A DNA stretch of 64,000 bases, taken from assembly GCA_011033025.1 (NCBI GenBank), contig WFMF01000342.1, forward strand, positions 124,001 through 188,000, given 5' to 3'. Each line of letters starts with the position of its first letter. Within the stretch, counting starts at the first letter, position 1. Source of the DNA: Beroe forskalii. Its lineage: Eukaryota > Ctenophora > Nuda > Beroida > Beroidae. A program made the position numbers and the translations under genes. The notes beneath the pieces are model-generated. The model did not search any database. It had not been told where the DNA came from and saw only the letters and a program-made list of their open reading frames with translations. This document shows positions 16,600-50,347 of this stretch, piece by piece.

Positions 16600-17445
16600 C
16601 TAAGAATCAGCCAGTAAAAGGAGAGTTGCCGGTTTGGTCGGCTGAGCGCTCCATCACCACAGAACAGTTGCTCCGTAAGAGGGCCGAGTTCTGGGACACT
16701 TCGCCCGCCTACGAGGGTAGGAAAGAGATCTGGGATGCGTTGAAAGCCGCTGCAGAGGCCCTGGAGTCGGGGAACAGAGACTTGGCCCAAGCAATACTGG
16801 ATGGGGCCAGCATTACCCTGCCGACTGGTACGTGATAGTAATAATGCTACATTGATGTAGATGCTTTAAATTCAGAGTGAAGGTACAGGTTTCACCTCTT
16901 ACCACACCCCACTCCAATAGTTTCTCATCTTACCACTCCACAGTTTCCCCTCTTACCACTCCCCACTCCACAGTTCCCCCAATACACCCCAGTCCACAGG
17001 TTTCCCCTCATACCACTCCCCACTCCACAGTTTCCCCTCCTACCACTCCCACTCCACAGGTTTTCTGTCCGACTGCTACGATGAGTTAGGGTGCCGGTAT
17101 GTGCTGCCTCCATACGTTCTCTCCCAACCGACTAACATCCTAACGAGCAAGCCTGAGCCAGCTGATGCCCTGCTGCCCTCGTCGCCTGTCACCATGACAC
17201 CAGACATGCACCTTCGAGTCCGCATGTCTATCGGGGACCAGATCTCAGACGAGAAGCTGCCCGTAAACTCCCTGGAGAGGGTGGCTGACGTGAAGGAACG
17301 CATCAGACAGAACCACAACCTGGGCAAGAGCAGGATCAGACTGATTTGTTGTGGCAAGGTCCTCAGCGATAAGACGGCTATCAAAGACGCCAAGGTCCCC
17401 AAGAGTTTTGTAGTTCAGGTTATAGTAACGACGGAACAAGACTGA
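16600..17445 (+). CDS. UBTD: Ubiquitin domain-containing protein UBTD1/2, last two exons
   Basis: Exon 16600-16827 follows the acceptor TATTTTCAG and ends in phase 1 at a GTACGT donor. Exon 17060-17445 follows CCACAG and ends with TGA. The first exon encodes the family-specific UBD: the REFWDT-like [19 protein letters not shown], then [17 protein letters not shown]. The second begins with [19 protein letters not shown] and carries a C-terminal ubiquitin-like fold (about residues 130 onwards: [10 protein letters not shown] to SFVVQVIV). UBTD proteins bind E2 ubiquitin-conjugating enzymes and are around 230 residues. The 205 codons here are nearly all of one, lacking only the N-terminal exon. 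A possible in-frame ATG at 16497 would extend into the intron and is not preferred. The intron between the two exons is largely a minisatellite that repeats the 3' splice site. Confidence 0.93.
16886..17059 (+). repeat. Minisatellite repeating the UBTD 3' splice site
   Basis: Six imperfect units of about 23-33 bp fill the last 170 bp of the intron. Each unit ends in a polypyrimidine tract plus CACAG (or AATAG) followed by GTTTYCCC or TTTCCCC. The last copy is the real acceptor CACTCCACAG|GTTTTCTG at 17059/17060. The repeat therefore multiplies polypyrimidine tract, acceptor and first exon bases. Confidence 0.85.
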
Positions 17446-17804
17446 CACACGACCTGTCTACGCCGCCTCAGTCACCTTATCAGTGGTGGCTTTGGTGGCA
17501 GTTTTACGAGCATTCGGTGGCTGAATTTTGAGTTATATTTGCTGATTTCATTTAACGAACTTCAATTCATCGTGTACGAGACCCATGATGTCAGATCGTT
17601 CATCTTGTTTCAGTTCTCTCAAACTGTGGTGAAAGCCGTGCAAGCTCAATCGCTACCTTTTCTTGATGTTGATGAACCGAATATTTGGTCCTTGTTCGAT
17701 ATGGTCCTATTTGCTGCTATTCTTCATTTGATTCCGTGAAAATATTTGTTACTGAATTTGTGTATCTTATAATGTCTAGGGGGCGGGTGATGTTTTTATA
17801 AGCT

Positions 17805-17810
17805 AATAAA
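17805..17810 (+). terminator. Candidate UBTD polyadenylation signal
   Basis: AATAAA lies 360 bp after the UBTD stop codon in AT-rich sequence, with a GT/T-rich stretch downstream. It is the first canonical hexamer after the stop that I noticed. Confidence 0.5.
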
Positions 17811-18657
17811 TTAGGAAGTTAATCATCGTTCTTATTTCAAAGTTTTATCGTAGAATGCGCTGTTCAGCAATCAATACACCGTGCAATGATTTTAGAAAAA
17901 TAACGAAATTCTCGAGGACTTGGAAGTCCATTATCCCTTACACGGCTATAACGCACAACTAAAATGCCTTCTAGCTTGTACTGCAAATGGTACCAGCGTA
18001 ATATGTTTCTAATTATTCTCACACAATCCATTTCCCGAGGCTTCTGACAATAGAAAGTACTGTATTGCTGCATTGTAATATTCAATCGCTTGGTGATATT
18101 CTATCGGGCTCAATAGAGAGCAGTAACGAATTATATAAGAGTAATGTATGTGAGATCTTAATCAACTTTCATTGGCAACCAAAATATCATTTACGAAAAC
18201 ATACCGATACCGTTCACGAAGAATGTGAAATGTTAGATTAGTTGAAATTAATATTCGTTGTTTTTGATTTAATTGTTCTTTATTAATTGAGACCACTTCT
18301 TCCAAAAGAAATACCAATAAAAGAGAAATTGTCTGCTGCAGACTAAAAACTGATCAAATATCAATGTATCGGGTTAAAGCTGGTTTTGATGATCAAGCTC
18401 GGATTCCATTGATTCCATTTCATTTGTCATTGATTAAAAACGTGATCCTCCAAGAATTCAAGTCTGGATTTTATCAGTTCGAATGATAACATAACATTAT
18501 ATGTATTTCGTTTACTATGTTATTGTAATCCGAATAGCTAGACTTTAGACCTTATTAAAGATTAGAAATGTTAATTGATTATTAGATGTAAGTCTTAGAT
18601 AAGTGATCGTCCACAAAACTAAGAGTGTTTCGAATAAAAAGGGATAAACTAATATTA

Positions 18658-18817
18658 GGGATGGTTCACATTTTACGCAATCGGCAAGGGGATCTGGTTT
18701 TCAAATAACTTCACTTTACGTTATTCTGACAAATACAACTCATTTTAACTTGATCACGGGTTACGGGGGGAGGGGATAAAAGGGATGAAATTGAATACGT
18801 AATATGTGAACGATCCC
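18658..18817. mobile_element. Short inverted-repeat element, same family as 29495-29707
   Basis: The ends are GGGATGGTTCACAT on the left and ATGTGAACGATCCC on the right, preceded by TTA and followed by TCA. The GGGATCGTTCACATATTACGT-type end matches the element at 29495-29707, where the flanking TTA is exact on both sides. A three-base target duplication of this type fits PIF/Harbinger-like MITEs. There is no coding capacity. Confidence 0.65.
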
Positions 18818-20557: not shown

Positions 20558-23226
20558 TCACATAATTTTAACAGTATGTAGCTTTTCGGTTGACTGAGTC
20601 CTGGAAAGGGGTTTAATTCTGGGTTCTAGGAGGGGTTTGCCCCTTCCCCCGCTAAGGATTTGAGGGAGGGAGTTGAGGGGTTGTCCGCAGTCCTCACTCC
20701 AGAGGGGCGGGTAGTAGTAGAAATAGCTGAGAGTAGCAACTATTGCCCCGATCACACTGCCCCACACTATGTCCTGAAAAGGGGGCACGTGAGCTGGGGT
20801 GGGTCTAGAATTTTAATGGAACATCTGTCAACAAGCTGACATCTGTTTGTATCAATGCGGACACTGATTAGTGGGATGGGCACTGAGCAGCATCCTAAAA
20901 CCCTGTATAACCCACGGCACACATATCACACATCTTCCCACAAAACAACTTCAGTGTAAACAACAGCTACCTGGTAGTGGTGCCAGTAGTCACAGTAGCG
21001 GGTCATGGCTATGTACAGCGCTATGATAATAGGTATGAGAGGTATCACTAGTCGCATCATGCCACGGTTTTGGGAGGGTGCAAAACTCCGTAGTTTACCC
21101 GACAAGTAGTAGGACAGGAAAAGTAGTCCAGTAAACGACCCTGCGGGTAGAAAGTGATAAAGAGGAAGAGCAGGCCAGTAAACGACCCTGCGGGTAGAAA
21201 GGGCTAAGGAGGAAGAGCAGGCCAGTAAACGACCCTGCGGGTAGAAAGTGATAAAGAGGAAGAACAGACCAGTATGCGGCAGTTGTAGGAAAATATGGCA
21301 CTCAAACATAGCATGATTGCAATTCTATCCATTGATAGATAATCGCAAGTTATCACTGTAAGACTACAATTAAACCACCTTACTTACAGCTGGAGTGTCC
21401 ACTAGGGAAGCTCTTCCGGCCCTCACTCAGTGTATCCGGTACTCCACTGCAGATTGGGGTCAGTCCTTCAAACCTCGGCTTGCCGTCCGGGAAACAACGC
21501 TCAAAGAAATCAGGGCGTGGTCGACCGACCATCAACTTTATGATGTTAGTGAAGGTTCCGTTTATCAGGACAGCTAACGAGATGGCTGGAATGGAAGGAC
21601 TGGTAATTAAGGAATTTGATGGTTCAATGAGGATTGGAGAAGGTTGGGGGGCAACCCCCCAAAATTAAGCCCCCTATTGGAAATTTGTTATATCCACCAG
21701 GGGGTTAAATTGAACCCCCCAAAATTAAACCCCCTATCGACAGCAGAAATTATTCTAGTATGATTCAAAAAAGCACCAAAATGAATAAAAAAGTACCATT
21801 TGAAAAAGTTGCCAAAAAACACGAATAAAAAAGGTACCATTTCGAAAAGGCGCAAAAAATCGGACACAAATTTGGTACCATTTCAAAAGGATACATCTGA
21901 AAAATCAGAAACGAAAAAGGTACCAATTGAAAATGATGCCAAAAATCAAAAACAAAATTGGTACCATTTAAAAAAGGGGCTGAATACCTGAAACAAAAAC
22001 GGTACCATTTCTGAAAGGTGCAAAAAACAAAAACGAAAAATGGTACCATTTGGAAAACGTGCGAAAAATCACGAACAAAACAGAACCATTTCAAAAAAAG
22101 TGCCAAAAATCACAAACAAAAAAGGTACCATTTCAAAAAAAAGTTCCAAAAATTATGAACAAAATGGTACCATTTTGAAATGGTGCAAAAAATCAGAAAC
22201 AAAAATGGTACCATTTCATAAAAGTTCCAAAAATTATAAACAAAAATGGTACCAAAAACCGGAAACATAAATGGTACCATTTCTAAAAATCGCCAAAAAT
22301 CACGACCAAACATGGTACCATTTTGAAATGGTGTAAAAAATCAGGAACGAAAATGGTACCATTTGTGAAAAAATGCCCCTTTTTGCACTAAGAATTAAGC
22401 CCCCTCAAACCCCCTTAAACCCGCCAAAATTAAACCCCCTATTGGCGATTTTTTTAATACCCCCCAAGGTTCTGCTAAATGCAAGATAATCAAATCACGC
22501 CAAAAGCCATAACGCGGTGTTATTATGCACTAGGAAATTTCAAAATTGTGCCATATTAGAACAATTACTACCTAGCAAACCAGTGACAGCATCTCTTTTC
22601 CGCCAATGCCATGTCTCGAATGCTATGATTATCAGACAGGGAATGAAAAGCGCAATCCACTGAAAGAAAAATATGTTTGTCAAGACTTGACAATTGAGAT
22701 ATAAAACCAACGTATATCAAAATAGATCGTGATTGGATCCATAAAAACTGGATTTATGATGAATCAGACGAGACTCATCATTTCAAGATTTAATTCTACA
22801 CTAATTTGAACAATGTCCTCACATGTCAATTATCAACTACAACTCACAAATAGCTGACCGGTAGTTATTGCCACATCACTAGATGGGGTGTGGGGGTTCT
22901 TGTACAACCACCACTCCTCTGTTTGGATTACTCTGATGAATGGGTCCTGGAAATCTAACCACCTGGAGAAATAAGGGGTTAGGGGCATCTCACTAGGCGT
23001 AATGGGGAAATTGGGGTAAGGGGTTCCTATTAGACTTAAAGGGGTTTTTCGTTGTAAGAGATAAGTGAACAGATGCCATAATAAAAACGGCAGAAATCCA
23101 CAGATTATTCTAAACTTTTACTCTCAATTTACAGTTTAAGATTGTAATATTTTATTTTACTTACACATAAAATATAAGGAGCACTATTCGGAGGAAGAGC
23201 TCGAAGGAAGTCTCTTTACTGATCAT
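20558..23226 (-). CDS. PLPP4/5: Phospholipid phosphatase PLPP4/5 (PAP2 family), complete, 6 exons
   Basis: The exons on the minus strand are 23165-23226, 22848-22962, 22572-22659, 21388-21585, 20971-21140 and 20558-20773. All have GT-AG borders and consistent phases, giving 282 residues (human PLPP4 is about 271). The PAP2 catalytic signature is intact. Motif 1 is KLMVGRPRP, motif 2 is PSGH in exon 4, and motif 3 is [11 protein letters not shown], whose last Asp is the first codon of exon 6. Five or six hydrophobic segments fit the known multi-pass membrane enzyme, which dephosphorylates phosphatidic acid, lyso-phosphatidate and diacylglycerol pyrophosphate in ER or plasma membranes. The start at 23226 ([13 protein letters not shown]) matches the short N-terminus of the family. 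The acceptor of exon 5 is repeated three times (21131-21271). Intron 3 holds a GGTACC minisatellite, and an 11-bp minisatellite lies about 270 bp upstream of the start. Confidence 0.95.
21131..21271 (-). repeat. 47-bp unit x3 copying the acceptor of PLPP exon 5
   Basis: Three units of 47 bp start at 21131, 21178 and 21225. On the minus strand each reads TTTCTACCCGCAG|GGTCGTTTACTGG and the following exon bases. Acceptors therefore occur at 21140, 21187 and 21234. Only the one at 21140 gives the exon that continues into the conserved [15 protein letters not shown] segment without extra sequence. Use of the others adds 47 or 94 nt and changes the frame. Confidence 0.93.
21775..22375. repeat. About 43-bp minisatellite carrying a GGTACC site in each unit
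   Basis: Roughly fourteen units of the type AAAATGGTACCATTT followed by a purine-rich GTGCCAAAAATCA stretch lie in PLPP intron 3. The array is bounded on both sides by CCCCCAAAATTAA-type sequence, which occurs in both flanks. Long open frames on both strands here are a by-product of the repeat. Confidence 0.9.
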
Positions 23227-23495
23227 CCTACCGCTCAGAAAATTGTTTATTTCGAACTAGATAACTACGCAACAGCAATGATTCATATAAAAATGGAAGA
23301 GAAATGGGGTTGGATTCAAACAGAGCAGAATAAAATAATCAGATTTTCGAGATTTGAACGAGTTAAAACTTTAAAGTTTTAAAAGAGGAAACGAGTAGAA
23401 ACAGGAATAAACTAATGAACAATGTATCATTTGGTAAACATTTTACCACAGCAGCTTTCAAATATATCTATTGTTTGGAGGGCACTTCCGATATC

Positions 23496-24624: not shown

Positions 24625-26522
24625 TTATCCGAAAGAGAAAGTGAAGCCGTTGTGACTGCTCCCTGCCCGGCCTCCCGTAAAGAACTGGTTGTGTCCACCT
24701 CCTGCTCCTCCAAAGAAGGTCTGGAAGATCTGAGTCGGGTCCACGTCTGAAAAGGAAGGAAGGTCAATGTGTGGTGAATGATTTGACACTGTAAGATGGA
24801 ATGAGAGTGCATTTACATGGTTCCAAAATCCCTTTAATGTTGCTCAAGATTCGTAAAGAAATGGAATATTCATTTTTACATAACTTCGTTGTATTCTTAA
24901 CGGTGTACTTACTGTGCATTCCGCCCATTGGGTCGTCCAAGTCCTCTCCGTTATCGTACCTCATCTTCTTATTGGGGTCCGACAGTACAGCATACGCTTC
25001 ACCCACCTAACAGAAACAGACGGGTTGAGATGTTATATCTTCGAAATATCGCACCAACTGAGCAAACAAAAATAGGTCGTCAATTTTTCAGAAACAGCAC
25101 GAACTTTCCAACCCATGATAAACGCTATTCACCCCTCGACTCAATAAAGGTTACATATATTTACCTCTTTGAACTGCTTCTCTGCCTGGCTCCGCTCCTC
25201 CTCTGTGCCGTGACTGTGTCTGTCTGGGTGGTGTTTCAGGGCAGCCTTCTTGTACGCCTTCTTGATCTCATCCTCGGTGGCACTCCGGCTACAACCCAGA
25301 ATCTTGTAGTAGTCCTTCCTCTTGGACATCTTCAGCTTGTTGTTAGCATCTCGTAGCCTCTGCTTAGACTCCCTGGCAAGTGGAGGTGTGTCAGCAACAA
25401 CAAAGACCCCTTTTCCCGCGACAACACGATAAAGATAGTGCAACAAATAAATTAACGGGATAAACATATAACTTTCCCAGCAGCAAACATCTCCAGAAGA
25501 TGCCCCAACCACGAAATACCTGCTGTGCTCCATGTTGTGAAGTATAAATACCTGCTGTGCTCCATGTTGTGGAGCTTGTCGGCATCTCTCACAGCTTCCT
25601 CGTGCATATCCAGCTCCTGATAGCACACAACCCGCCTAATGTAAGCCTTGATGTAGTGGTCGTCCAGCCCAATAGCAGCATTGCAAGCCTGCAATGGTGG
25701 TCAACAGTTAATGACAAGTTTACCATACCAACATTCGTTATGTCAATGGAAAGCGATTCAAATCAACTTGTTTTAAAGAAATTACAGGAGAAAAGTAACA
25801 GCTGCTCCAGCCGCGCGCTGATTGACCAATGGTTCATATCATATGTTCAGAGGGGGCTTACCCCTCAAATTTCGTCACCAGTTGTTTCACATCTGCTGTA
25901 CTTACAATATCAATCTGTCATACCATAATCCACAATACAATAGTGGGATCCAATGGGTATGATAATAGCGGTATTATACGATAATAAAGTTACCTTGAGG
26001 GCCTCCTCGTAGTTTTTGAGTTTCATGTGCACTGCTGCCAGGTTCCCGTGGAGTTTGGCGTTGGTTAGCTTGTTATTGGGGCATATCAGCAGGGCGGCTT
26101 TGTAGAGTTTTAGGGCTTCTTCATTGTTACCACTGGTGAAGGCAGCGTTACCTTTCTGCTTAGTTCCTTCTAACTCCTTTACATCCTGATGTTATGCACA
26201 TTGTTTGCAAAGTTTGATTGGGCAGTGTTAGAGGTGGTAGCAAGGACTTACGTTACAAGGGCACTGGACAATCAAGTGATACAATCAGATGTAATGGGCA
26301 TCATTTATGTTGTAGGATTTTGTCAGATGTCATATTTAAATTTCCCTGCACATCGTAAGGGTGGCCTACCGATTATCATCATTTTGTATCAATAACTCCA
26401 TGAAACATTGGGGGAAGTATAAATTGTCTATACTGTACCTTGATAGCAACTCTAGCTTTAGAATGGTCCGGATCAACTCTCAGTACTTGGAGGAAGTGTT
26501 GTCTGGCCTTGTCTAGCTGGTC
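24625..26522 (-). CDS. DNAJC7: DNAJC7 exons 6-11: last TPR repeats and J domain
   Basis: Exon 6 (26439-26522) begins [14 protein letters not shown]. Exon 7 (25994-26185) holds [14 protein letters not shown] and YEEALK. Exon 8 (25552-25688) holds [19 protein letters not shown]. Exons 9 and 10 contain the J domain with HPD and [10 protein letters not shown]. Exon 11 ends with a Gly-rich stretch, FTFSFG and TAA. The exon 8 donor is chosen at 25551/25552, because joining CACAGCAG to GGAGTCT gives the conserved spacing. A second identical donor 32 bp downstream in the intron would shift the frame. Confidence 0.95.
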
Positions 26523-29500
26523 CTGAGATGGGACAACGTTAAATAGAGAGGTCAGCTTCCGGAGAATCGAGTATTGATGCTTTTACGCAGATGTGTGTGT
26601 TTGTAGATCCCTCGATTGATAGAGGGCACAATAAAGACGCGCAATTTTGGTGAACTTTCAAAAAATTTACACAAAATTTTGACGCGCGAATACTTTCACT
26701 TGAATTTGTTTTCACAAGCCATAGCTTACAAATATAAAGGCACGGATGAAATTGCTCGAAATTTGACAGATGAAAGATTGAAACATTATGTCTATGAGAA
26801 AATAACCCTCCAACAAACGGAATCTAATCATCCATCGGTCATTTAAAGACCCGTCTCTCTCTCTCTCTCCCTCTCTCTCTTGGTCTAAAATTATTCAGAG
26901 AGTAAGGTCAGGACAGCTCATAATCTTAAAAACAGCGAAATGAGGTCCATGAAAGTACTTTTAAGCACCATGAAAATAAAACTATTTGCTTTTAAGACAC
27001 TAATTATACCAAAGCCAGATTGGATTTGGTCGATGAATAAGCCATAGGAACGACCGTTTCAGTTTGAGTGGCATTGTCGTGGAGGGTACGCATTTTTAAA
27101 TGCCCTCCCTATTAAATGTCCTGTTTGAATGACATTTAACATTTGTGTCAGCATCAGTAGATCCGGCGTACGGCGCAAGAGTTCCAGACACCAAGCTAAC
27201 TCAGTTATTCTGTCATTCTGTCATCTTTAGCGAGGCAACATTCAATAGTTTCCTGGAGGCTGGAACCCCGCAGAACTGTTGAAAACCTGGTTCTTGTTGT
27301 GTAGCGATTGCAAATCTTCAATCTTTAATATGAGTGGATCGACCGAGTTACTTTCTTAGCCGAAGGTGAAGTTTCGTGGCCGAAGCCGAAGTTTGAAAAA
27401 TGCGATTGTCTAATCAATTACCTTATTAATTAATTGATTAATAAAGTTTTTTTCAATTTCTTCTGAGAAAGTTACAGTAAGATTAGACTTCAAAAAATTG
27501 AATGGCAAGAACAGAAACCAACATAACTATAATCCTATAAATGAAACATTATCTCCGAACTACGCTCGGAGATGAACCTACGGGGATACACACTATACAA
27601 TATGATTACAAGTTTGTGTTATAGTTTATTGGAAAATTTATAATTGTTGATTTGATTTCGGAAATTGATTAGAAAATCTGTAAACCTTTTGAATTCTACC
27701 AATAATTTTCCAACCCCAAAAAAAGGAAAAAAATAACATTTTGAAATTTCTAAGAAGCTTCGGTCAAACTTCGGTCGATTCATGATATGAAATTAGTGAT
27801 ATTTCGCTGATCACCTTTGAGGCGCCCGTAACGTTCGACGGTCGATCGATTGGAATTGGTCGATCGATCAATCCATTTGAACAAATGATGTGTTTTACTG
27901 GTCCCTTAAATGACTTGAATCGTGTTTAAATGATCAATATTTAGTTGTTTTCCTACTAGCTCAAACATTTTCTATTCAAAACACATCAGTCGATCAAATG
28001 AAGTTGATCGATCGACCAACTCCAATCGATCGACCGACGAACGTTACGGGCGCCTAACAGTTTAATCACATTGTGATCAGGTATAGTACGATGTTACGGC
28101 TACAGATTATCTTACTGGTTCACATGGGAGGAATATTTTGCTTCGACTCTGAAGATGAAGAATTTGGAGATGCAATGCTACAGTTAGACACAGGATTATG
28201 TGACAAACATGGCATCACCGTTTCAGATCATGCGATCAAATCATTGGAAACTAATAGTTCAATTCTATGCTGGAAGTTTTGTAAGTACATGAAATCGTGC
28301 ACATTATTCTCCTACAAAAACGACACTTCAAATTGCACCTTATACGGCGGATCACCCGATGAGTTCACTAATAACACTGTGGCGGAAGGATCGGTATCAG
28401 CGACCAAAGCCTGCTACAGGAAGGAAGTCGAGCCGAGACAGTGTATCACAGACTCGGACATCAAGGGGAATGTTAGCGTATACCTGGTGATAGCCTCTTC
28501 CACCCGATCCTGTGTTGCTGTGGAGAGGAGCCGACAGAGCAATGCCACTGACTGTGAGAACAACTTGAAGGTGTTGCCGTGTCAAGCTAACCAGGCGTGG
28601 TCCCTAGATGGGGAACCAGACCATTTCCAAGTGAGGCACGAGGAACGGGGACTGTGCCTGATAAGGTACAGGGGAAACCAAGACGAGCCCTGGCTCCACC
28701 TAGGGTTGTGCGAGGGAGAGGAAACATACTTTCAAACACGGTCCGAGGGTACGATGTGTGGAGCTCAGCTCACGTTTAAGCGTGGCATTTTCACAGAAAC
28801 CGTGAAGCTGATACGCAGTCCCGGCGCGGAGGAAATAACAGAAGTCGATATAATACCCAAGTCAGCACTGAGCACAAAGCGACTGTGTAAGAACTTGCGG
28901 GTTGCAAATGGGGCGGTTGTCGAGGAGAAACCTCTGTATCTGCCGGGCCAGCTGATTAGAATACGGTGCAAGAAGGGGTATGGAGTGAAAAGTGAGGGGT
29001 TTCAGGAAGAAATGGAGATCAGGTGCACCAATAACATGCCAAGAATCGTCTGCAACAAGATAGGTAGCGCTGACAAGAGCAAAGATACTTACATACTGAT
29101 CATTTCAACCCTTCTGATTATTATCTTTGGCCTCCTTGTGGCCAATATAATTCAATTTTTTGCAAACCGACATAAAGTTGCCCCAGTAATGAAATAACAC
29201 ACTCCTGAATCAAGATGGCCAGCCCGGAGTGTACTCAACAGGAGACAGCGACAGTAGACGGGACTCAGAGGGACAAGCAGAAGTCTACATCCCCACAGAA
29301 ATGTGTGATGGCTTGTGAGGAAGAGGCAGTTGATACAAAAGAGACTTGTTAATCGAACTCAGGTTGTGAAAGTATTTGTAAAAGAGCATAATTTTTGTTT
29401 TGAAATTTGCTTTGTTATTCTGTACCTTTCACTCATTACCCTTACAGACGAACATAGTGATAGATGTTGTCTTTTAACTATTAATCAGCTCTTAGGGATT

Positions 29501-32500
29501 GTCACATATTACGTAATCAATTTTTGGCCGATTTCAACCCCCCTCCCTCCTCGTAATCAAGTTTACAGTAGTTGTAGTTGTTACAATAACATGTAACGTA
29601 ATACGTTACATGTTATTGTAACAACTACAACTACTGTAAACTTGATTACGAGGGGGGAGGGGGTTGAAATCGGCCAAAAATTGATTACGTAATATGTGAA
29701 CGATCCCTTATAAAGTTTAAAAAACGAAAATTCATGCAGATTCAGTTACATCACTTCACACTTTCAAATGTCTATAATAAAGAACGTTTATAATCCTGCC
29801 AGGCTTGGACGTGACCGGTCAAGACAACATTCATTTTGAGCCCATAATCAGGCGGTGCCGTATCAGTTTTTAATATATATAAGATTTTTTCCCAAAACCA
29901 AAAAGGATTTGGTTGTGATGGTCCGCGGCGGTTTTAAGGCGTTCTTTACTGTAAAACCCATGATATGAGAAAGAACGCGACGGTTAAAACTGCTGCAACG
30001 TCACAATATACAGCATTCACGTAACTTTAATGCATCAAAAAAGTGCCGTTGCGGCAGTTTTAACCGTCGCGTTCTTTCTCATATCATGGGTTTTACAGTA
30101 AAGAACGCCTTAAAACCGCCGCGGACCATCACAACCAAATCCTTTTTGGTTTTGGGAAAAAATATCACCCTTTTTCTGTGCCGAGATATTGAAATTTGGC
30201 GTCAAATCGCGCGTAAAAATTCGCGTTACCTAGCATTACTGATGACGTCACAATTACGTCATAAAATTAGATAAGCTATCTGAGACCCATTCATTAACAC
30301 AATTGGGACTATGACCGACAACATATCCAAAGATGAAGTTCTGGGGTGGTCCTGTTCTCTCTCCACTAGCTTCACAAGTTTTGCCAGTTTTTGGAATTTT
30401 TTTCGTGTCAATGTGTTTCAAACAATCGCATATATCTCAATGATGCCGGGGAGCCCAGAACTTTTAGACCACATTTTTGAAAAGTACATTAAATTTCCTT
30501 TCTACGCTAAGAGGAGCATTTTTTCCTATCTCGAACGCTTCATACCGAAAAATTGCGTTGAAAAACGCCTATTTTTAGGAAAATCGACATTTGAAATTCT
30601 TAGTTTTGTGACGTCATTATGACGTCATTATCATGACGTAAAATAGTTTTTAAGGTCACTAACTGCAAGTTCTATCTTTCTTCTTTCCAACGCTGGGTCG
30701 ATGAGCTCTGTATCTTTTATGGTTCCCGAGATATCGCCGTTTAAATAGAGTACACTTCTTGCACTAAAGCGTCATCTCTCTATATGTATATACCTCTATA
30801 TATCTGTATATATATATTTTTTCCCAAAACCAAAAAGGATTTGGTTGTGATGGTCCGCGGCGGTTTTAAGGCGTTCTTTGCTGTAAAACCCATGATATGA
30901 GAAAGAACGCGACGGTTAAAACTGCTGCAACGTCACAATATACAGCATTCACGTAACATTAATGCATCAAGAAAGTGCCGTTGCGGCAGTTTCAACCGTC
31001 GCGTTCTTTCTCATATCATGGGTTTTACAGCAAAGAACGCCTTAAAACCGCCGCGGACCATCACAACCAAATCCTTTTTGGTTTTGGGAAAAAATATCAC
31101 CCTTTTTCTGTGCCCAGATATTGAAATTTGGCGTCAAATCGCGAGTAAAAATTCGCGTTACCTAGCATTACTGATGACGTCACAATTACGTCATAAAATT
31201 AGATAAGCTATCTGAGACCCATTCATTAACACAATTGGGACTATGATCGACAACATATCCAAAGATGAAGTTCTGGGGTTGTCCCGTTCTCTCTCCACTA
31301 GCTTCACAAGTTTTTCCATTTTTTGGGATTTTTTCGTGTCAAAGTGTTTCAAACAATCGCATATATCTCAAGGATGCTGGGGAGCTTAGAACTTTTCAAC
31401 CACATTTTTAAAAAGTGCAGTAAATTTCCTTTCCACGCTAGGAGGAGCATTTTTTCCTATCTCGAAAGCTTCATACCGAAAAATTGCGTTGAAAAACGCC
31501 CATTTTTGGGAAAATCGACATTTGAAATTCTTAGTTTTGTGACGTCATTATGACGTCATCATCGTGACGTAAAATAGTTTTTAAGGGCATTTGTCGCAAG
31601 TTCTATCCTTCTACTTTCCAACGCTGGGTAGATGAGCTCTGTATCTTTTACCGTTCCCGAGATATGGCCGTTTAAATAGGGTATACTTCTTGCACTAAAA
31701 GCGTCATCTCTCTATATGTATCAGCGTCGTAACCCTTTTTAACAAGAACACCCTCAATTTTGGCGATTTCAAGTAGTTATAACTCAGCCATTTCTGAACG
31801 AATTGATCTCAAATTTTAAACTCCGAGCGCGCGCACAGCGAAGGCGCGGAAACTCAATTTTCGATTGATTTGATCGTCGGGAAGGTTCCGTAAAAAATTT
31901 TGAAATTTGGCGAATCAGCAAAAACATATATATGGGGGCTGGCAAGCGCAGCGATGCGTACGCATCGCGTGTACGATTTCAGTGCGAATAAGTTGTCATA
32001 ACCTGGGCATCTTTTATCCAATCGATCTGAAATTTTGACAGTTGCACCTTTGACCCTCAAACATGCGACGTATAGATTTTGGTGGAAATCCAATAACGGG
32101 AAATTGCCCAAATTTCTTCGTGAAATGAGGGGAAATACATGAGATTTCTCTCGTTAGAATCGCCGTCCAATGCTCGCCCTCGGACCCTTCGGGTCCTCGG
32201 GCTCGCAGCTCGGGCCTTCGGCCCTCGCACTGTTAGGTTCGCCGTCCAATGCTCGCCCTCGGGCCCTTCGGGCCCTCGGGCTCGCAAACCGCCGCGGGGG
32301 GCTTGCCAGCCCCCTGATATGTATATACCTCTATATATGTGTATATATATGGTCGTAACCCTATTTAACAAGAACACCATCGATTTTGGCAATATTCAAG
32401 TTGTAATAACTCGGCCATTTTTAATCCAATCGATCTGAAATTTTGACAGTTGCACCTTTGACCTCTAAATATGCGATGTTCAAATTTTGGTACAATTTCG

Positions 32501-35500
32501 GCAACGGGAACTTACTCAAATTTTAACGTGAAATATGGCCAATCCATGAAAACATATAGTTGGGGGCTGGCAAGCAAAGTTAACAAAACTCACTTCCGAT
32601 GTCCGGAAGCTCGTTTACTGTTAGGATCGCCGTTCAATGCTCGCCCTCGGACCCTTCGGGTCCTCAGGCTCGCTCGGGGCCTTCGGCCCTCGCACTGTTA
32701 GGGTCCGCCGTCCAATGCTCGCCCTCGGACCCTTCGGGTCCTCGGGCTCGCGGCTCGGGCCTTCGGCCCTCGCACTGTTAGGACCGCCGTCCAATGCTCG
32801 CCCTCGGGCCCTTCGGGCCCTCGGGCTCGCAAACCGCCGCGGGGGGCTTGCCAGCCCCCTGATTTGATTGAACCACCTTGGTGATTCGTTTTGAGCCGTG
32901 CCTTAGCAGATAATTTTCTGTGCACACGTCAAGTTGTTATTACCTGATCTCTGTTCTCAAGCGGTCCAGATGATCCCCAGCAGGGGAGAAGGGGGTAGAA
33001 GTGAGAAGTGGTGTGGAGGATGTCGTTGGTGCTATGGAGTGTCTTAATGGGTGGGGAGTGTCTTTGTGGCTGGGGAGTGTCTTTGCGGGTGGGGAGTGTC
33101 TTTGTGATAATGGGAGGGTTTGATCCGTTGAGGATGTCCTCAGCCAGCCATACTGCTACACCTGACCATGTAGCAACTGAAGCTGTAGAGGAGAAGTTGG
33201 TACTGACAGAACTTCTGATCAGTAACAACTGATGGACGTAGTTGGTAGGGGTACCACAACTGTCCAGGATCAACTGTCAACCCAATGGGGCAGGTAATGG
33301 GGTGGAGCACCAAATAAGAGGACGTGGCCCGGCTAAGGTATCTAGCATAAGTCGCACGTCAGGATAAGGGCACGTATGCCGGTATCCTTCCTTACCCCAG
33401 GGCTGAGCTGATGAGGGAGTGGTGGTGACTGGACTGGTAAATGGAGAAAGACAGGTTTGACATGTGTGAGGGACTTTGATGTTGGCTGATGTGATGTACC
33501 CTTGTAGGGTGATGGGAGAAGAAACAGAAGTTCACAGTGGCTCAATGGGCTTGGTGGATGTGAATGTGCCCAGAGCAGAAAACCTTGAGACTGGGTGCTC
33601 GTTCGAGAAGAAATGCCCCATAAGTCCCTGTCCTTAACCAAAGATTCACCGTCGGCCGCCGTTATGGGGAACTTTGGCAGGCTTTCTTTCATGCCCACTG
33701 TGATGGATTCTGTTGTTACTGAGACAACATGCTCCCACAATACTCGAAACATCCGAATATCACCAGCCCGGCAATGCAACCCAGGGACCCAGGGCCCAAC
33801 CGGGACCGCAGCCAAAACGCCACCGACCCGAAACCCAGTTACACCAAGTGCGCCTCAACACCCCATGCACCGGGAGTCTCAAGCCAGAAGGCGCCAAGCC
33901 AACGCCCCAGCCACGCCCAAGGCCCCAGGCCACCAAGCCAAGCCAGCACACCCCGATGCACCAAACAATGCAGGCACATGTGTGTCCCAAGTCAACACAA
34001 GGATCAGCATGTGATTGATGGTCTCTTGTTGGCTTTGCCCATGATGGTTAGGCTCAAAAAGGTTGGATGCAGGTTGGATGGTCGTAGGATGGTTGGACAC
34101 AAGTTGGTTTGACACTAGTTGGTGAACTCGATCTGGTATGACACGAATTAGTTGGACTCTTTCTGGTCTGACATATTATGAGATGCCTCCTGGTACAATC
34201 TTGCTGGATTAGCCCACTGGTAGTTTTCTCTGTTAATCCAGATGAAGTGGCTGCATCGAATTGCTATCTGTGACAGTTCTTTCCTGATCTTAATCTGGTT
34301 TCCTTCGGTGATTCCAAGCATCTTGAATGTTGTCAGAGATGGTTTTGAAACAAAACCTCTGGCACCCACTTCAATTGTTTGACATTTTGCATTGTAACCA
34401 TTTGATTTTGCCTCCTCTATGAGACTCATGTATTTTGTTTTCTTCTTCATCCTCCAGTAAGATACATTTTCTTCTGCAGGTGATGTGAGTTCGATGAAGA
34501 GCACTTCCTTTTTCTCTGTACTGTAAATACAGATGTCAGGCCGCAATGATGTGATGACAATTTCAGGTGCTATGCTGTATTGTGCTTGTCGAGTATCCAT
34601 GAGTATTTTCCAGTTTCAAATGATCGAGTATCCATGAGTATTTTCCAGTTTCGAATGATCGATCGCTGACTAGACTGAACAAGGCAGCGCGCGCGCGGGG
34701 TGAATGCTCGTGCAACTGATGATTAAATGGTGTGCTTTTTACTGGCAAAATGCAGAAGTAATGCGAACTACGCCATTGTTATCATTTTCAAATGCGCGCT
34801 TTTTGCGCGCAGTATTTGTTTACACCTTTTTCTAACGGTCACATGATCGACTCCACCTTGTCGTGATCCAGTCAATCGTCAATGACAAACTGATGACGAT
34901 AAGGCATGACTTAGACGAACGATTATCAATGTTATTGCTACGGTATTTGACCGGATTTATCAGTGAAGAGTCTGCTTGAGCCGCGTGCTAACACTGTCAA
35001 TGTGATGAATTACAAACGCAAGGGCAATTGTCATCACTTATTAAAACAAGGTTACCTGGTAAAATAGGCACAAGCCCTTGACATACAGAGCACCAGCATC
35101 GAGACTGTTTACTCGTAACATTTCACTGAAATTGCAAGAGATATGTGACGAACGTGTCAATTGACGTAAAATTTGTCGTGACTGTAGTTGTAAGAAATAA
35201 CTCATTTCGTTTGGAAGCTTTCATGAGATGAATTATATCACCAAAAATCTTATCCAAAGACATCATCAAACTAACTTGGATGATTCTTGAGCCTCGTTGT
35301 ATCGGCCCAGTAAAGCCAGACATTCAGCCCTTCTTGACTTGTAGTGGGTACATGCTGGGGCCATCTCTAGTGCTCTGTCTAGCACGTAGACGACCTGAAG
35401 AAACGGGTTATTCTCAACTCTAGAATGTTTTCATGGTTTACATATAATCTAAGTGAAGTCGCTGAGACTTTTCTACATCGATTTAGATTGATGATCTCGG

Positions 35501-38500
35501 ACTTTTTATTCGTGTCTGATGAATCTGCAACGAAATGAAATTGACATGTTTCAATTGTCATAAAAAGCCCACAGCGAGTTAGAGGCAGCGATTCTATTGA
35601 CGAATGACGGTGGGTTACAGAAGTAATGATCAATAAAATGTATCAGTTTAGTTAGAGTCAATTGCAAGTAAATAATGATTGGGAGTTAGCGATACTAATT
35701 ATCAGTCTATTGTCACAACGTATACTGTCATACTAGGGCAGGCCTGTTTCAGGATAACCAGTATAATCAGGCCATGATAGATAATTTGCTACTACAGTTA
35801 AATGTTTAAAAGTTTCAATAATCACCATTGACTGCACTTATTACATTAGATTGTTAGAGTAACTGAGTAGCTATACCTCCATGAAATGATTAATCATATA
35901 TTAGACCAAAGTGAAAAATAATCAATCTACCTTTCTGTAGTCACTTTTGTTCATATCCTTCTCTGCACTAGCCTCCATTTCCCTCAGCCTGTTGATAGTG
36001 GTAGTTTCACTAGCGTAGCTGGCAGAGTTGGACGTGTCACGTGATTTTAAATCCTCCAATGAGCGTGAAGCAGCTGTCAGGTTACCCAGAGCAATGTAAC
36101 ACTTGATAACACGTAGTGACCCCTGGGGGTAAGAAGGGGTTATCACGCAGTGACCCCTAGGGGGTAAGAAGGGGTTATCACGCAGTGACCCCTTGGGGCA
36201 AGAAGGGGTTATCACGCAGTGACCCCTAGGGGGTAAGAAGGGGTTAACAGGCAGTGACCCCTAGGGGGTAAGAAGGGGTTAACAGGCAGTGACCCCTAGG
36301 GGGTAAGTAGGGGTTATCATGCAGTGACCCCTAGGGGGCAAGAAGGGGTTATCACGAAGTGACCCCTGGGGGGCAAGAAGGGGTTATTACGCAGTGACCC
36401 CTAGGGGGTAAGAAGGAGTTATCACGCAGTGACCCCTAGGGGGTAAGAAGGGGTTATTACGCAGTGACCCCTAGGGGGTAAGAAGGGGTTAACAGACAGT
36501 GACCCCTAGGGGGTAAGTAGGGGTTATCACGCAGTGACCCCTAGGGGGTAAAAAGGGGTTATTACGCAGTGACCCCTAGGGGGTAAGAAGGAGTTATCAC
36601 GCAGTGACCCCTAGGGGGTAAGAAGGGGTTATTACGCAGTGACCCCTAGGGGGTAAGAAGGGGTTAACAGGCAGTGACCCCTAGGGGGTAAGTAGGGGTT
36701 ATCACGCAGTGACCCCTAGGGGGTAAGAAGGGGTAAACAGGCAGTGATTACGCTGGATGTTTCCAAAAGGATATCACTTAATTCCATGAATTGAGATTTG
36801 TAGTTTTGACATCAGGCAGTGGCCCTTGAAGGTGTAGAAGAGGGGTTGGAAGGATATTCAATGGGTAGAAGAGGACACCTCTACACCAGATATTACCAGA
36901 TAAGACCGTATTAAAACCTACTGTCTACTAAAATAACCCCCGTTAGCAATGTACCTTGAAGAAGTTAGGATCCTTCTCCACAGACTTAGTTGAGTCCTCC
37001 AGGGCGTTCAAGTAGTTATTAATCATCATGTAAGCAGCAGCCCTGTTCCCGTAATACGCAGCCTTCTCCGGCTGCAGGTTGATAGCATTGGTGTAGCACT
37101 TGATAGCACGGTAGTAGTCCTTCAGTTTGTACGCCGAATTCCCTTGTTCCTTAGCGTCCTCGGCTTCACGCTCGCTGCAAAATGTCAGGCGGACATTTAG
37201 GGTGTGAATTCCAGAAAAATTACAAATTATATTCAATACGCCGTGTATTGCGATAATTTTCAAAGGCTTCAGTAACATAATTTAGCGAATATTGTAATAT
37301 TGTAGCGACTCGCGTAGATTATAAATAGTGGTCTATTGTGGCAGTCACTTTGTGTAGTTGACTTGCTCACTGGATCTTCTTAAGACTAATTGATAATTAC
37401 GTCTTGACATATGCAAGTGAAATTTTCACTGACAGTTGAAACAGCCGAAACGAAAACCAATTCTACAGCTTGACAAATTCTAGAAACCAGTAAATTCCAT
37501 GTGCAATTTGAATGAAATATTATACCTGAATAATTCCAAATAATCTGAAAATTGTACGCCGAGTACCAATTAGATAAATTAATCACAGAGAATTACAATA
37601 CCAAGCAGTACCAATTTAGCTTTTCAATGATAGAAGGATATGGTATCGCAATCAATCAAACGTTCTAATATGCGACGCGTCATATAAGTCCTATTTATAG
37701 CCCTGTTGTTACGGCGAGTAAGCTCGGTAAGTGCAGTGAGTTCCGCGGTTAAAACACTAATTCTACACACGGCACTCATGATACAAGACAGTGATTAGAG
37801 ACACTCATTACACGACATACACGGAGTTGTACAGTGAAATACGAGGTAGAACTTTTAGAGAAACATGTGTGCTTGGAAAAGAATTACTCGCATTCGAGTG
37901 ATATAAGCAAAACGAGGATTGAATGGATTCACACTTCAGTTCTTTAACGAAGTTATCGTAGTGGTGATTTCGTCAACGAAAAAGCTCAGCATTCCGCAGC
38001 ATTGTGAACAACAAGAATTGCGCCTGCAGGCACAAATCTTGTTTGTCCGTTTTTCCCGTATGCAGGCGCTTAATTTCCCTCCCCGTGGTGCTTGAAATTG
38101 ATGTTGAATTAGTATCATGTGCAGGCTATCCTACTCCTAGTAAGAGTATAATCTAAGCTAATCTAATGACGCGTAGTTATACTGTTGCATTAATTGCAAA
38201 AAGGCTTAAGTGTAAAAGATCCCAATATTTTCGTATCTGTATCACTATAACACTAAATATTAACATGGGTTGACGTATAACAGATTGACATCAGTCAAAC
38301 AGTTAATTGATTTATTACCCTGTCAAACTTTTCAGACGGCCCTGCGCACGCTGCAAGGAGCTCGAGTGCGCGGTGTAAGTGCAGAACCTTCGCACTTCGA
38401 CTTGATTGAAGATAAAAACAATTATTTCAATTTGACGAAAACTTTCATGTTTGCCTTCTGAATGAACAGCTCTCGGAAAATGGACGCTCTACCTTATTCA

Positions 38501-41383
38501 TTCCACTGTAATCGTTACTAGTTGATAACTGCGGCGCACTTTTACATATTTTGACTCATGCTGCGCCGCGCACGAACATTCATCAACAATACATGATCTC
38601 CGCAAGCGTTTGCGCGCGCGCGTTGTGCGCGCGCAAATGTAAGAGTTGCTAGGAGACTCGTCTGTGTGACGTTTTTACGCCACTTTTATGACGTTTTTAC
38701 GCCACTTTTATGACGTTTTTACACCACTTTTATGACGTTTTTACACCACAACCATTTTCCGGGCACTTTTCAGAAATTACAGTAGTTGTATTGCAAACCT
38801 GGACCTGCAATACACAGATCCTATTTATCACCTTCCCGAACCACGATCTCTGCTAACCCTCTTCAATGCCTTTTTGTAAGACAAAAAGGCGTTGGGGAGG
38901 GGAAAAAATGTATATGGTATAGACAAAAGGTACAATTTATGAATGTAAGCACTACAATTTCGTAAATCATGAAATGATCGGGTATATATCATGTAATCAC
39001 ATGGCCACTGTGATGATTCTCATTTCTATCCGTGATACTTTGATCATTTATCATTACTATATCAGATATCTGCAGTTAGCTGATGAATGAGGATTATGTT
39101 CATTGTTTCATGGTTTCATTGTTTACTTGAATCAATGGATCCTTTACCACCCCAGTTGGCAGTTACCTCTCCTGCTACCACCCCAGTTACCTCACAACGT
39201 TGAGCTCCTTGGGGTGTAGGTTGTTGGTGTAGTAAGTTTTGTGAACCCCGGGGGCCACTTGCAGTTTAACGTATCCCATCTTAGACACACAAAGCATTAT
39301 TACGATAACGGTCAAATCATTCACAAGTAAAAGTTCTAGCGGGTTATGTAACGGAGTTAGTGACTGTAAAAATCATTTAACTCAACTAAAATCGGCAAAT
39401 CAAAACAGAAGACTCGGTCCAAATATCAGAGCGAGCAGCACTAAAAACGCGTGATAAAATATGAGCATATAATTCCAAGACAAGGCCGCCCCCGCGAACA
39501 ATTTCACTTGTGTAGATGTTTTGAGTCCTGGACGAGCACTAGGTGGCTGCGAGTGACGTCATTATCAGGCTTTAAAATGGCGAATTGAACAGGTCAAATC
39601 GCCTGGTTTCCAGGGTCAGTATACAGTGCGATGAATTGCAATTTGTGGTAATGTCGGAGGTCGATGCTCCGTTTTAGTACTTAGCAAGTAGAATGGTTTA
39701 ATAAATGGACGCAGATTTATCAACTCTACTTTGACACGGCAGTTAGGTACAATTTGAACTTGAGATCTTCGAATGCATGGAAATGATTTATATACTTCTT
39801 CAGTTCTTGGTTAGAATTTGTTAAAAATGATCCAAAAATAGAATCAGGGAAATTTAAAAGTGGCCATGAAGTGGAAGTTTGCAAGTCGAATTATACCACA
39901 AGTTGCAAAATTGTAACAAAATTTTGCAACATGAATACAAACAATGAACAATAAAAACCGCTAAAAAATTTACTTTGTTCCGGTTTAAACTAAATTTACA
40001 GGCCACAAAACAAAATATTTCATGGCAATTGAAACAATTTAATGAAAAATCAAAAACAAAGTCCAACAAAGAACTTTGCGTTGTCATCAAAACGTCAAAA
40101 ATTACGATCCACAAAATAACAGCCAGTACGTAAACGAAACAAACTTCCATTAGACAAACAAATCTCAGTTAATTGTCAGTGAGAGGTCAGATTGCTTGTC
40201 AGTGTCAAAAACACGACGAGTGCATGTGAGGCGAGACATGAACGCACGACTCATATGGTCCAATAACAACGCCTCCTCTGTTGTTGCTATTGCTAAGATA
40301 GAGAGCTTGATGATTTCACAGTACACATGAGCACGGAGAGTGGTCACAGGGGATGGGTGTCTTACTTACGTAGGGACTGTTTAATGTTTATCATAGCACC
40401 TGCAGTGTATATACATGGTATACATCATACATTTCGTGTACAATCTAGGGGGTTTATACTTGGGACATAGTGGTTCTTTATTAGTAAATCATTGGTCTAT
40501 TCCATTGTTTTAATTGTTTACCGACTTAAAATACGAATCATTGTTTATACAGTTATTGTTAATTTATATACGTTTTGTATACGAGACGAATAAAAAACGT
40601 AAGATTATGCACACTTCAATAACTTTAACAATATCATCGCGGGTGCGCTATATATACGACTATCATGCACGATTAATGTGAATACATATTATTATAATGG
40701 ACAATTATTATCAGCTGCAAGTTATGCAAAAATGAATTCAAGAAACCACAATAGGTAATAATATGCATTATCAATAGCAAAATTAGGCGACCAAAAAACT
40801 GATCAAACGGAGACAAAACAATCGCAAGTAACCAGAAATTAACGTTGTGATAGAAGATATGTGGTGAAATGTTAAACAACAGGCAGTAACGATACATTGC
40901 AATCACTTACAAGTCTCAAATAATGGTTATGAGTGTAAGACAAACAATGGGAACAGACAGAAGACAAACAGACAAACAAGTATAGAGAAAAATAGACATG
41001 CAGTCAACTTTAAGATGGACTGTCAACTTTTAAACGGACTGTAAACTTTTAAACGGACAGTAAACTTTTAAACGGACAGTAAACGTTGAGATAAAATAAA
41101 AGACAATAACAGATACTTTCTCGTTGGCTGGCAGAAAAACCGACACACAGGCAAACACAGACTTACAGGTCTCTGGGAGGTTGGTCTGACAGACAAACCG
41201 ACACACAGACACAGACTTACAGGTCTCTGGGTGGTTGGTCTGACAGACAAACCGACACACTTACAGGTCTCAGGGAGGTTGGTCTGACAGACAAACCGAC
41301 ACACAAACACAAACTTACAGGTCTCTGGGTGGTTGGTCTGAAGTGTCCATGAAGTGATCGTCACTGTCTCCGTTCTCTGACAT
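24625..41383 (-). CDS. DNAJC7: DnaJ homolog DNAJC7 (TPR2), complete, 11 exons
   Basis: The exons in coding order are 41319-41383, 36955-37174, 35931-36122, 35276-35394, 35056-35125, 26439-26522, 25994-26185, 25552-25688, 25165-25372, 24913-25006 and 24625-24746. Every border is GT-AG and every phase joins, giving 500 residues against about 494 in human. The product is a cytosolic co-chaperone with TPR repeats that bind the C-termini of Hsp70 and Hsp90, followed by a C-terminal J domain that stimulates Hsp70 ATPase. TPR motifs run from [17 protein letters not shown] to the [10 protein letters not shown] segment. The J domain starts at KDYYKILG and keeps the HPD triad in [10 protein letters not shown] glycine/phenylalanine-rich end closes at TAA. 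Three of its splice junctions lie in tandem repeats. Intron 1 and exon 2 form the right arm of the inverted duplication, and intron 5 hosts a gene on the opposite strand. Confidence 0.96.
25520..25583 (-). repeat. 32-bp duplication of the DNAJC7 exon 8 donor
   Basis: The segment AACATGGAGCACAGCAG|GTATTT of the minus strand occurs twice, with donors at 25551 and 25519. The copies are 32 bp apart and differ by one or two bases. The exon end is thus duplicated into the intron together with its 5' splice site. Confidence 0.88.
26853..26880. repeat. CT microsatellite
   Basis: An almost pure CT tract of 28 bp with one C insertion, in DNAJC7 intron 5. Confidence 0.9.
27821..28054. mobile_element. 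234-bp MITE with about 52-bp terminal inverted repeats
   Basis: The left end GGCGCCCGTAACGTTCG is mirrored by CGAACGTTACGGGCGCC at the right, and the match continues inward through several CGATCGATC words with only about two mismatches over some 52 bp. The middle is AT-rich and does not code. No clear target duplication was seen. The right end lies 37 bp upstream of the start codon of the gene at 28091, inside its leader or core promoter. Confidence 0.85.
28091..29197 (+). CDS. Intronless type I membrane protein: PAN-like, ricin-like and sushi domains
   Basis: A single open frame of 368 codons starts at ATG 28091. The more upstream GTG is not a plausible animal start. A hydrophobic signal peptide ([18 protein letters not shown]) is followed by a PAN/apple-like cysteine pattern ([22 protein letters not shown]). 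Next is a beta-trefoil-like part with NQAWSLDG and GLCLIRYRG, as in ricin B-type lectins. A sushi/CCP domain with four cysteines follows ([30 protein letters not shown]). A transmembrane helix ([20 protein letters not shown]) and an 11-residue tail ending in PVMK close it. Seven or so N-glycosylation sites lie outside. It is therefore a likely cell-surface lectin-like receptor or adhesion protein. It lies on the opposite strand within DNAJC7 intron 5. Absence of introns suggests a retrogene or a naturally intronless family. I do not recognise an ortholog. Confidence 0.85.
   Translation: MLRLQIILLVHMGGIFCFDSEDEEFGDAMLQLDTGLCDKHGITVSDHAIKSLETNSSILCWKFCKYMKSCTLFSYKNDTSNCTLYGGSPDEFTNNTVAEGSVSATKACYRKEVEPRQCITDSDIKGNVSVYLVIASSTRSCVAVERSRQSNATDCENNLKVLPCQANQAWSLDGEPDHFQVRHEERGLCLIRYRGNQDEPWLHLGLCEGEETYFQTRSEGTMCGAQLTFKRGIFTETVKLIRSPGAEEITEVDIIPKSALSTKRLCKNLRVANGAVVEEKPLYLPGQLIRIRCKKGYGVKSEGFQEEMEIRCTNNMPRIVCNKIGSADKSKDTYILIISTLLIIIFGLLVANIIQFFANRHKVAPVMK
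29198..29494 (+). other. 3' flank of the intronless gene
   Basis: Non-coding sequence directly after the stop, probably its 3' untranslated region. No AATAAA was seen before the MITE at 29495, so transcripts may run into that palindrome. Confidence 0.4.
29495..29707. mobile_element. Near-perfect palindromic MITE, TTA target duplication
   Basis: The element is a 213-bp inverted repeat with almost no loop. Its arms of about 100 bp match with few differences around a centre near 29600. The ends are GGGATTGTCACATATTACGT and its complement in CGATCCC, flanked by TTA on both sides (29492-29494 and 29708-29710). A TWA duplication fits the PIF/Harbinger superfamily. A second, diverged member is at 18658-18817. 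Confidence 0.88.
29885..31740 (+). repeat. Two tandem 0.93-kb units, each headed by a long hairpin
   Basis: Unit 1 starts at 29885 and unit 2 at 30817, about 932 bp apart. Each begins with a hairpin: about 110-bp arms (CCCAAAACCAAAAAGG to the mirrored CCTTTTTGGTTTTGGG) around a 55-60 bp loop. A body of about 640 bp follows, rich in GACGTCA words (for example 30242 and 30611), ending in CTCTCTATATGTATA. The units are about 95 percent identical by eye. The open frames in them (such as 30086-30274 and 31018-31206) follow the hairpin and have no recognisable protein. Confidence 0.85.
31735..32870 (+). repeat. Two GC-rich repeat units with GGGGGCTGGCAAGC inverted ends
   Basis: Two related units run from about 31735-32320 and 32346-32870. 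Each starts GTCGTAACCC and AACAAGAACACC, then carries GGGGGCTGGCAAGC (31933 and 32561), whose reverse complement GCTTGCCAGCCCCC closes the unit (near 32305 and 32850). Between them lie tandem GC-rich segments of about 75 bp with nested palindromes such as CCTTCGGG and GGCCTTCGGCC. The GC content is far above that of the neighbours. All open frames here on both strands are by-products of composition. Confidence 0.75.
33025..33115. repeat. 20-bp minisatellite GGGTGGGGAGTGTCTTT
   Basis: Four units of 19-20 bp, G-rich on the + strand, in DNAJC7 intron 5. Confidence 0.8.
33600..34600 (-). pseudogene. Retroelement remnant with REL-type endonuclease motif, copy 1
   Basis: The minus frame at 34600-34148 encodes a PD-(D/E)XK-like core. 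It has SLRPDICIY, then [11 protein letters not shown] 13 residues later, [14 protein letters not shown] and VGARGFVSK, as in the C-terminal endonuclease part of some non-LTR retrotransposon ORFs. A homologous remnant lies at 47190-47760, and a short match around CGGCCGCC at 33650 suggests the element's 3' part continues to about 33600. No reverse transcriptase is left. A 40-bp duplication (TATCCATGAGTATTTTCCAG) at 34595-34655 borders it. Confidence 0.65.
35056..37174 (-). CDS. DNAJC7: DNAJC7 exons 2-5: first TPR repeats
   Basis: Exon 2 (36955-37174) encodes [20 protein letters not shown] to EKDPNFFK. Exon 3 (35931-36122) encodes [14 protein letters not shown] to KSDYRK. Exon 4 (35276-35394) encodes [15 protein letters not shown] and [14 protein letters not shown]. 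Exon 5 (35056-35125, only 70 nt) encodes [16 protein letters not shown] and LCLFYQ. The order matches human DNAJC7 block by block. The exon 3 acceptor CCCCCAG|GGGTCACTA lies in the first unit of an 18-copy minisatellite. Exon 4 uses a GTTAGT donor. Confidence 0.95.
36109..36745 (-). repeat. 35-bp minisatellite, about 18 copies of DNAJC7 exon 3 acceptor
   Basis: About eighteen units of 35 bp. On the minus strand each reads CTTACCCCCTAG|GGGTCACTGCGTGATAACC, the same design as the true acceptor TTACCCCCAG|GGGTCACTACGTGTTATC at 36122/36123. Variants at the unit ends (ATCAC, ATTAC, AACAG) recur in a five-unit pattern seen twice, a 175-bp higher-order repeat in the distal half. Nearly every unit carries a pyrimidine tract plus TAG or CAG. 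Confidence 0.93.
36778..40814. repeat. Right arm of the inverted duplication (parental copy)
   Basis: It is the reverse complement of 1-36, 6119-8544 and 11564-13025, uninterrupted. It spans part of DNAJC7 intron 2, exon 2 and most of intron 1. The site matching the LINE insertion is at 40776-40778, and the one matching the 3-kb left-arm insert is near 38250. The inner break at 36778 is only about 35 bp from the end of the exon 3 minisatellite. Confidence 0.93.
38660..38755. repeat. 22-bp tandem repeat (GACGTTTTTACGCCACTTTTAT x4)
   Basis: Four copies of a 22-bp unit in DNAJC7 intron 1, preceded by a GCGCGC tract. The matching place in the left arm is collapsed and distorted. Confidence 0.85.
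41005..41095. repeat. About 20-bp tandem repeat (AAACTTTTAAACGGACAGT)
   Basis: Four to five units of 19-20 bp in DNAJC7 intron 1, next to the exon 1 donor repeat. Confidence 0.85.
41161..41345 (-). repeat. Minisatellite with four copies of DNAJC7 exon 1 donor
   Basis: On the minus strand the exon 1 end and donor CAGAGACCT|GTAAGT recurs four times. The GTAAGT elements are at 41313-41318 (real), 41259-41264, 41215-41220 and 41161-41166, spaced 54, 44 and 54 bp apart. Each unit includes CAGACCAACC of the exon and a GTGTGTCGGTTTGTCTGT intron part. All four donors are full GTAAGT. Confidence 0.93.
41319..41383 (-). CDS. DNAJC7: DNAJC7 exon 1
   Basis: The exon starts at ATG 41383 and encodes [19 protein letters not shown] then RD, plus two bases (CT) that join with C of exon 2 to make Leu before [12 protein letters not shown]. 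The N-terminus is short and acidic, as in other DNAJC7 proteins. The donor GTAAGT is the first of four copies. Confidence 0.9.
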
Positions 41384-50345: not shown

Positions 50346-50347
50346 AC

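Follow-up and report, generated by a model that had tools for sequence, protein, structure and literature searches.

The window analysed here, 64,000 nucleotides of the ctenophore Beroe forskalii (C406:124001-188000 of a 216-Mb genome), carries three neighbouring genes: UBTD, with at least 2 coding exons in the part read, a PLPP4/5-like gene with 6 and DNAJC7 with 11. The DNAJC7 protein is 80-82% identical to six proteins, that of Mnemiopsis leidyi (81%) among them, and 70% identical to another, with about 53% and less for the other animals listed. Splice junctions were set by homology. DNAJC7 spliced in this way aligns ungapped with 8/8 of the relatives shown at the exon 2/exon 3 and exon 8/exon 9 joins, and with 6/8 at the exon 1/exon 2 join, around which two proteins (P0007 and P0009) vary. 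Similarly, spliced UBTD aligns ungapped across its junction with UBTD2 of the PDB, and the spliced PLPP product gives a single continuous PAP2 match. Tandem repeats at five junctions of these genes are the subject of this work (Table 1).

Table 1. Splice-border repeats, the exons that they adjoin and the second DNAJC7 copy (window coordinates)
Feature	Position	Strand	Description	Basis
DNAJC7 exon-1 donor array	41123..41341	-	4 units, 44-54 bp; GTAAGT + last 22-23 exon bases per unit	TRF, reading of DNA
DNAJC7 exon-3 acceptor array	36110..36747	-	18 units, ~35 bp: TAAC, pyrimidine tract, AG, first 13-14 exon bases	TRF, reading of DNA
DNAJC7 exon-8 donor duplication	25514..25571	-	2 copies, period 32; 20 exon + 6 intron bases	reading of DNA, not in TRF list
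PLPP4/5-like exon-5 acceptor array	21116..21274	-	47-bp unit, 3.4 copies, 25 exon bases	TRF, reading of DNA
UBTD acceptor array	16909..17059	+	C/T-rich, period ~23-30; 7 AG sites, the working one among them	TRF; weak case
DNAJC7 coding exon 1	41319..41383	-	exon 1 ends at 41319	
DNAJC7 exon 3	35931..36122	-	exon 3 starts at 36122	
DNAJC7 exon 8	25552..25688	-	exon 8 ends at 25552	
PLPP4/5-like exon 5	20971..21140	-	starts at 21140	
UBTD last coding exon	17060..17445	+	starts at 17060	
Part of inverted, truncated second DNAJC7 copy	6112..13024	+	intron 1 + broken exon 2; interrupted at 8545-11562	

At DNAJC7 exons 1, 3 and 8 and PLPP exon 5 (E1, E3, E8 and PLPP E5 below), the repeated unit, 32-54 bp long, consists of an intron end, the splice site and 13-25 exon bases. 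The UBTD array has units of 23-30 bp and stops at the junction, with ~4 exon bases in common. The ungapped tandem score through the junction separates these cases: 75 for E1, 74 for PLPP E5, 71 for E3, 26 for E8 and 13 for UBTD, against 0-6 at the remaining 28 of the 33 window junctions. TRF run on the window listed four of the five arrays, the two-copy E8 duplication being the one missing. The first-pass annotation had placed all five junctions within repeats copying the splice site; E1, E3, E8 and PLPP E5 are clear border-spanning arrays, while UBTD is borderline. The E3 unit amounts to an almost complete acceptor module: TAAC, a possible branch point, then a C/T tract, AG and the exon start. 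In the E1 array, pairwise growth is seen as a 98-bp period of 1.9 copies with a 95% match (TRF). Independent origin of the arrays, proposed at first reading, agrees with their units, since 10/10 unit pairs resemble each other no better than shuffles do (lowest P 0.195).

At all five junctions the copy adjoining the exon codes for conserved protein, in keeping with the initial view that this copy is the working one. Relatives' proteins thus suggest that the spliceosome would choose the exon-adjoining copy and that the spare sites probably stay unused. Could the arrays instead be useful, as decoy or alternative splice sites tuning DNAJC7 or adding in-frame protein repeats? Some of the spare sites look suitable. 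The four GTAAGT donors of E1 have near-equal scores (5.4, 5.4, 4.5, 4.5), the scores of spare sites being fair in general, and two spare E3 acceptors, at -138 and -69, leave the frame open. Most spare sites tested, which were those of E1, E3 and PLPP, nevertheless lead to stops: 3/3 spare E1 donors bring one directly after the exon, 15 of the 17 spare E3 acceptors give one, and so do two of the three spare PLPP AG sites, the open one (-63) being no border copy. Moreover, nothing is inserted at these DNAJC7 joins in the relatives' proteins, at any of the three, save 3 residues in P0007 at the first. The working E3 acceptor is CAG, as in 45/60 predicted acceptors outside the window, whereas the spare copies are TAG in 15/17 cases, with one CAG and one AAG; this last argument is weak, the TAG copies possibly sharing one change. 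A function of this kind is therefore quite improbable in our opinion.

A DNAJC7 stretch (44077-36777) recurs in inverted orientation at C406:120,689-124,039 and, within the window, at 6112-8544 and 11563-13024. This second copy, which covers exons 1-2 and is interrupted by two insertions, sits across UBTD and PLPP from the gene, and the duplication breakpoint lies 30 bases from the E3 array. Piece by piece, substitution divergence from the gene amounts to 3.8, 7.5 and 10.2%, and it is very uneven, many 250-column bins showing 0-2% and a few 10-39%. Several one-base gaps relative to the gene in exon 2 make the second copy look broken. Its exon 1 and donor array lie outside the window, at C406:123422-123692; all four units recur in this array, which departs from that of the gene by one 10-bp difference in length and by two substitutions in unit 2. 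The E1 array is therefore older than the DNAJC7 duplication, and misassembly is an unlikely source of it.

Tandem arrays are a known weakness of assemblies, and copy numbers or entire arrays could be wrong. Elsewhere in this genome, two mitochondrial-carrier matches of identical score, C1080:382669-383523 (+) and 394144-394998 (-), lie inverted ~11 kb apart, and reflect either an inverted duplication or an assembly fold-back. Against an artefact at the splice borders speak the presence of the E1 array, four units each time, in two diverged places, and the substitutions by which the E3 copies differ among themselves. We regard an artefact as the least credible of the explanations, with very little probability left to it.

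One of the insertions (window 40-6111), in intron 1 of the second copy, carries an endonuclease-like ORF with weak Pfam matches, as well as ORFs that on visual inspection resemble reverse transcriptase; at its end there is a direct repeat of 17 bp (6084-6119). A 7-bp target-site duplication considered around this element was not borne out by the comparison of gene and second copy. Related element copies occupy 44076-50358 and 52195-53384 of the window; three of these copies contain arrays of 143-bp units, and one stretch is inverted.

The density of the arrays, five in 25 kb, was what had stood out. Random placement of array units in the window predicts 0.73 junctions against the four clear ones seen (P 0.0035), and limiting arrays to at most 30 coding bases predicts 0.46 (P 0.002), but the window was picked for its arrays, so that its P values come with this choice built in, and E8 was entered manually among the arrays for every window null. 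The density was noticed after the fact. When arrays are placed anywhere in the window, 3.1 junctions are expected (P 0.38) and the window looks ordinary; this null lets arrays overwrite exons and was dropped in favour of unit placement.

A sample from outside the window, comprising 150 kb of sequence on three other contigs together with 30 kinase loci, was annotated with a small self-trained gene finder. Among its 119 predicted junctions in 259 kb, of which perhaps 90 or fewer are real, a single one is duplicated (95% interval 0.02-4.6%), where random placement of 124 array units predicts 1.67. In this gene-finder sample, arrays do not fall on splice sites more often than chance. The accuracy of the finder in the window (25/33 confident junctions right) is an optimistic estimate, as it was trained partly on the same genes. 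Pfam searches with 9 of the 13 predicted proteins, some of them trimmed, matched a family at E 0.001 in seven cases, five of these nine being above Pfam's cut-off. Ten junctions of kinase locus L013, where predicted exons fall in an apparent coding repeat, were left out of the final count; five of them score high, and with this locus the outside count would be 6/129. An earlier, stricter criterion gave 1/124 outside (in L013) and 3/33 finder-predicted junctions in the window. The L013 repeat itself, a coding-looking tandem repeat at positions 34-1001 of that locus, lies beside the kinase gene. The finder also predicted a window junction at 33042 in a 19-bp array, which was taken as a false exon in DNAJC7 intron 5 and kept outside the 33; in the flank C406:104001-124000 it found no confident multi-exon gene.

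These counts bear on the idea that splice borders are hot spots of duplication, through C/T-rich acceptor tracts, AG/GT microhomology, R-loops or stalled forks. The excess in the window speaks for it, as does the position of the acceptor arrays of UBTD, DNAJC7 E3 and the duplicated outside junction (on contig C358) in C/T-rich tracts. On the other hand, such tracts are lacking at two of the four clear cases in the window, both of them donors, and so few outside junctions would be seen with P 0.04 under a three-fold and 0.002 under a five-fold enrichment, the power being limited at two-fold (P 0.15). On this sample the claim put forward at first reading, that splice borders are duplicated by a local process, fails. 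We therefore hold hot spots to be improbable, and tolerance, the second option offered at that time, remains.

The surroundings of the junctions point in the same direction. The window is not particularly rich in arrays (0.41 per kb vs 0.30-0.52), and 5.9% of its 1,374 noncoding points lie in tandem copies, vs 8.5% of 3,994 in three other blocks. Outside, 75/1,876 (4.0%) of intron points 30-300 bases from junctions are in tandem copies vs 0.8% of the junctions; the corresponding proportion in the window is 114/570 (20%), mostly owing to the five splice-border arrays. Deeper in introns the figures are 518/1,851 outside and 63/1,190 in the window. Thus junctions are not favoured and, if anything, are hit less than nearby intron, as would follow if an array may reach into the exon with its last unit only.

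The window (4/33) and the outside sample (1/119) do differ (Fisher P 0.008), and the choice of the window may be the source of its junction excess. Among the 8,646 spans of 25 kb in the genome, ~1.5 would reach 4/33 by chance at the observed rate of 0.84%, ~13 at a true rate of 1.5% and ~143 at 3%. In a genome rich in repeats, we take the cluster of four to be a peak due to chance.

The sole duplicated outside junction, on C358, is an acceptor present in 2 copies 196 bp apart, with ~79 exon bases; its exon matches Ig_3 weakly (E 0.0008), short of the Pfam cut-off. Because this case is the same in build, the phenomenon is not limited to the window locus. Genome-wide, the donor word CAGGTAAG forms 921 pairs at a distance of 20-49 bases, vs 121 for the reversed word (7.6 times), an excess that could hint at donor-containing arrays; among 100 of these 921 pairs listed, about 30 places are represented and two arrays hold 49 pairs, this count by place concerning CAGGTAAG only.

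Taken together, the arrays are probably ordinary single-locus minisatellites that arose by chance across borders and are tolerated since their surplus stays in the intron. A tandem duplication spanning a border would keep an intact junction at the exon and push the extra copy into the intron, where, being spliced out, it would be nearly invisible to selection. Later duplications of one or several units would extend the array towards the intron, while the spliceosome would take the copy adjoining the exon, that is the 5′-most donor or the 3′-most acceptor. The arrays themselves probably originate from slippage or unequal exchange. Alternatively, tandem duplication at splice borders could be raised in this ctenophore, or in this stretch of its genome, and combined with a reliable exon-proximal choice among up to 18 near-identical sites; we give this combination a small chance. 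If true, these genes would be natural tests of splice-site choice.

Border-spanning minisatellites of amphioxus were named as a precedent when the arrays were first noticed, and this precedent exists: the lancelet 'mirages', tandem repeats across exon-intron borders, are described in Adh3, the globins BflGb6 and BflGb9, TnC (troponin C) and PGBD5 (PMC3087553, PMC3902484). These papers give units of 10-72 bp in Adh3 and 150-160 bp in the globins, and describe unstable lengths with undisturbed splicing (globin RT-PCR, Adh3 data). Two features of mirages can be compared directly. A unit spanning the exon-intron border is found here at 4/33 junctions, UBTD being borderline. As for a repeat particular to its own locus, genome-wide searches with three arrays (E1, E3 and PLPP), which skip simple repeats and very common words, returned two places for E1, namely the gene and its local duplicate, matches confined to its own array for E3, and only its own locus for PLPP. 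As in lancelets, donors and acceptors are both concerned; the units measure 32-54 bp in the clear cases, 23-30 in UBTD and 196 on C358. The differences are the host, a ctenophore, the presence of an array with 18 units, and that the arrays are known here from genome sequence. We conclude that they are of the known mirage kind, now in a further phylum. A literature search joining ctenophores and minisatellites returned nothing on border-spanning arrays at the level of titles and abstracts.

In human paralogs within segmental duplications, minisatellites with ~30-bp units, some at exon-intron boundaries, are reported to change exons and introns, novel introns being proposed in some cases (PMC2812944). 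As far as that report describes them, they share unit length and border position with the arrays presented here, whose coding sequence in contrast is unchanged. In potato RdRp, a duplicated border can yield a new intron (PMC4974935). This intron gain by tandem duplication (Rogers model) has in common with our case a ready-made splice site beside the old one. In contrast, each array here lies on one side of an existing intron, the spare copies falling within single DNAJC7, PLPP and UBTD introns in homology-based models, and no new intron has come from a duplicate. Minisatellites inside an intron are also described in earthworm metallothionein (PMC12783039). With a ctenophore joining the animals that have border-spanning minisatellites, these fit a general by-product of repeat turnover and not a lancelet oddity. 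Such material has been proposed as a source of new introns, and both the 18-fold acceptor and the fourfold donor offer natural experiments on the choice among near-equal splice sites.

The DNAJC7 introns hold other features. In intron 1, a possible coding piece (39300-39195, minus strand) precedes a donor-like GGTAACT, which is repeated; the piece gave no match in a Pfam search and differs by one base in length in the second DNAJC7 copy. A PAN domain is encoded by a 379-aa ORF (28058-29197) that lies in intron 5 on the opposite strand; nested intronic genes are described in another ctenophore, Hormiphora (PMC8527503). Finally, a direct duplication of ~917 bp, 94.8% identical, is found at window positions 29874-31721.
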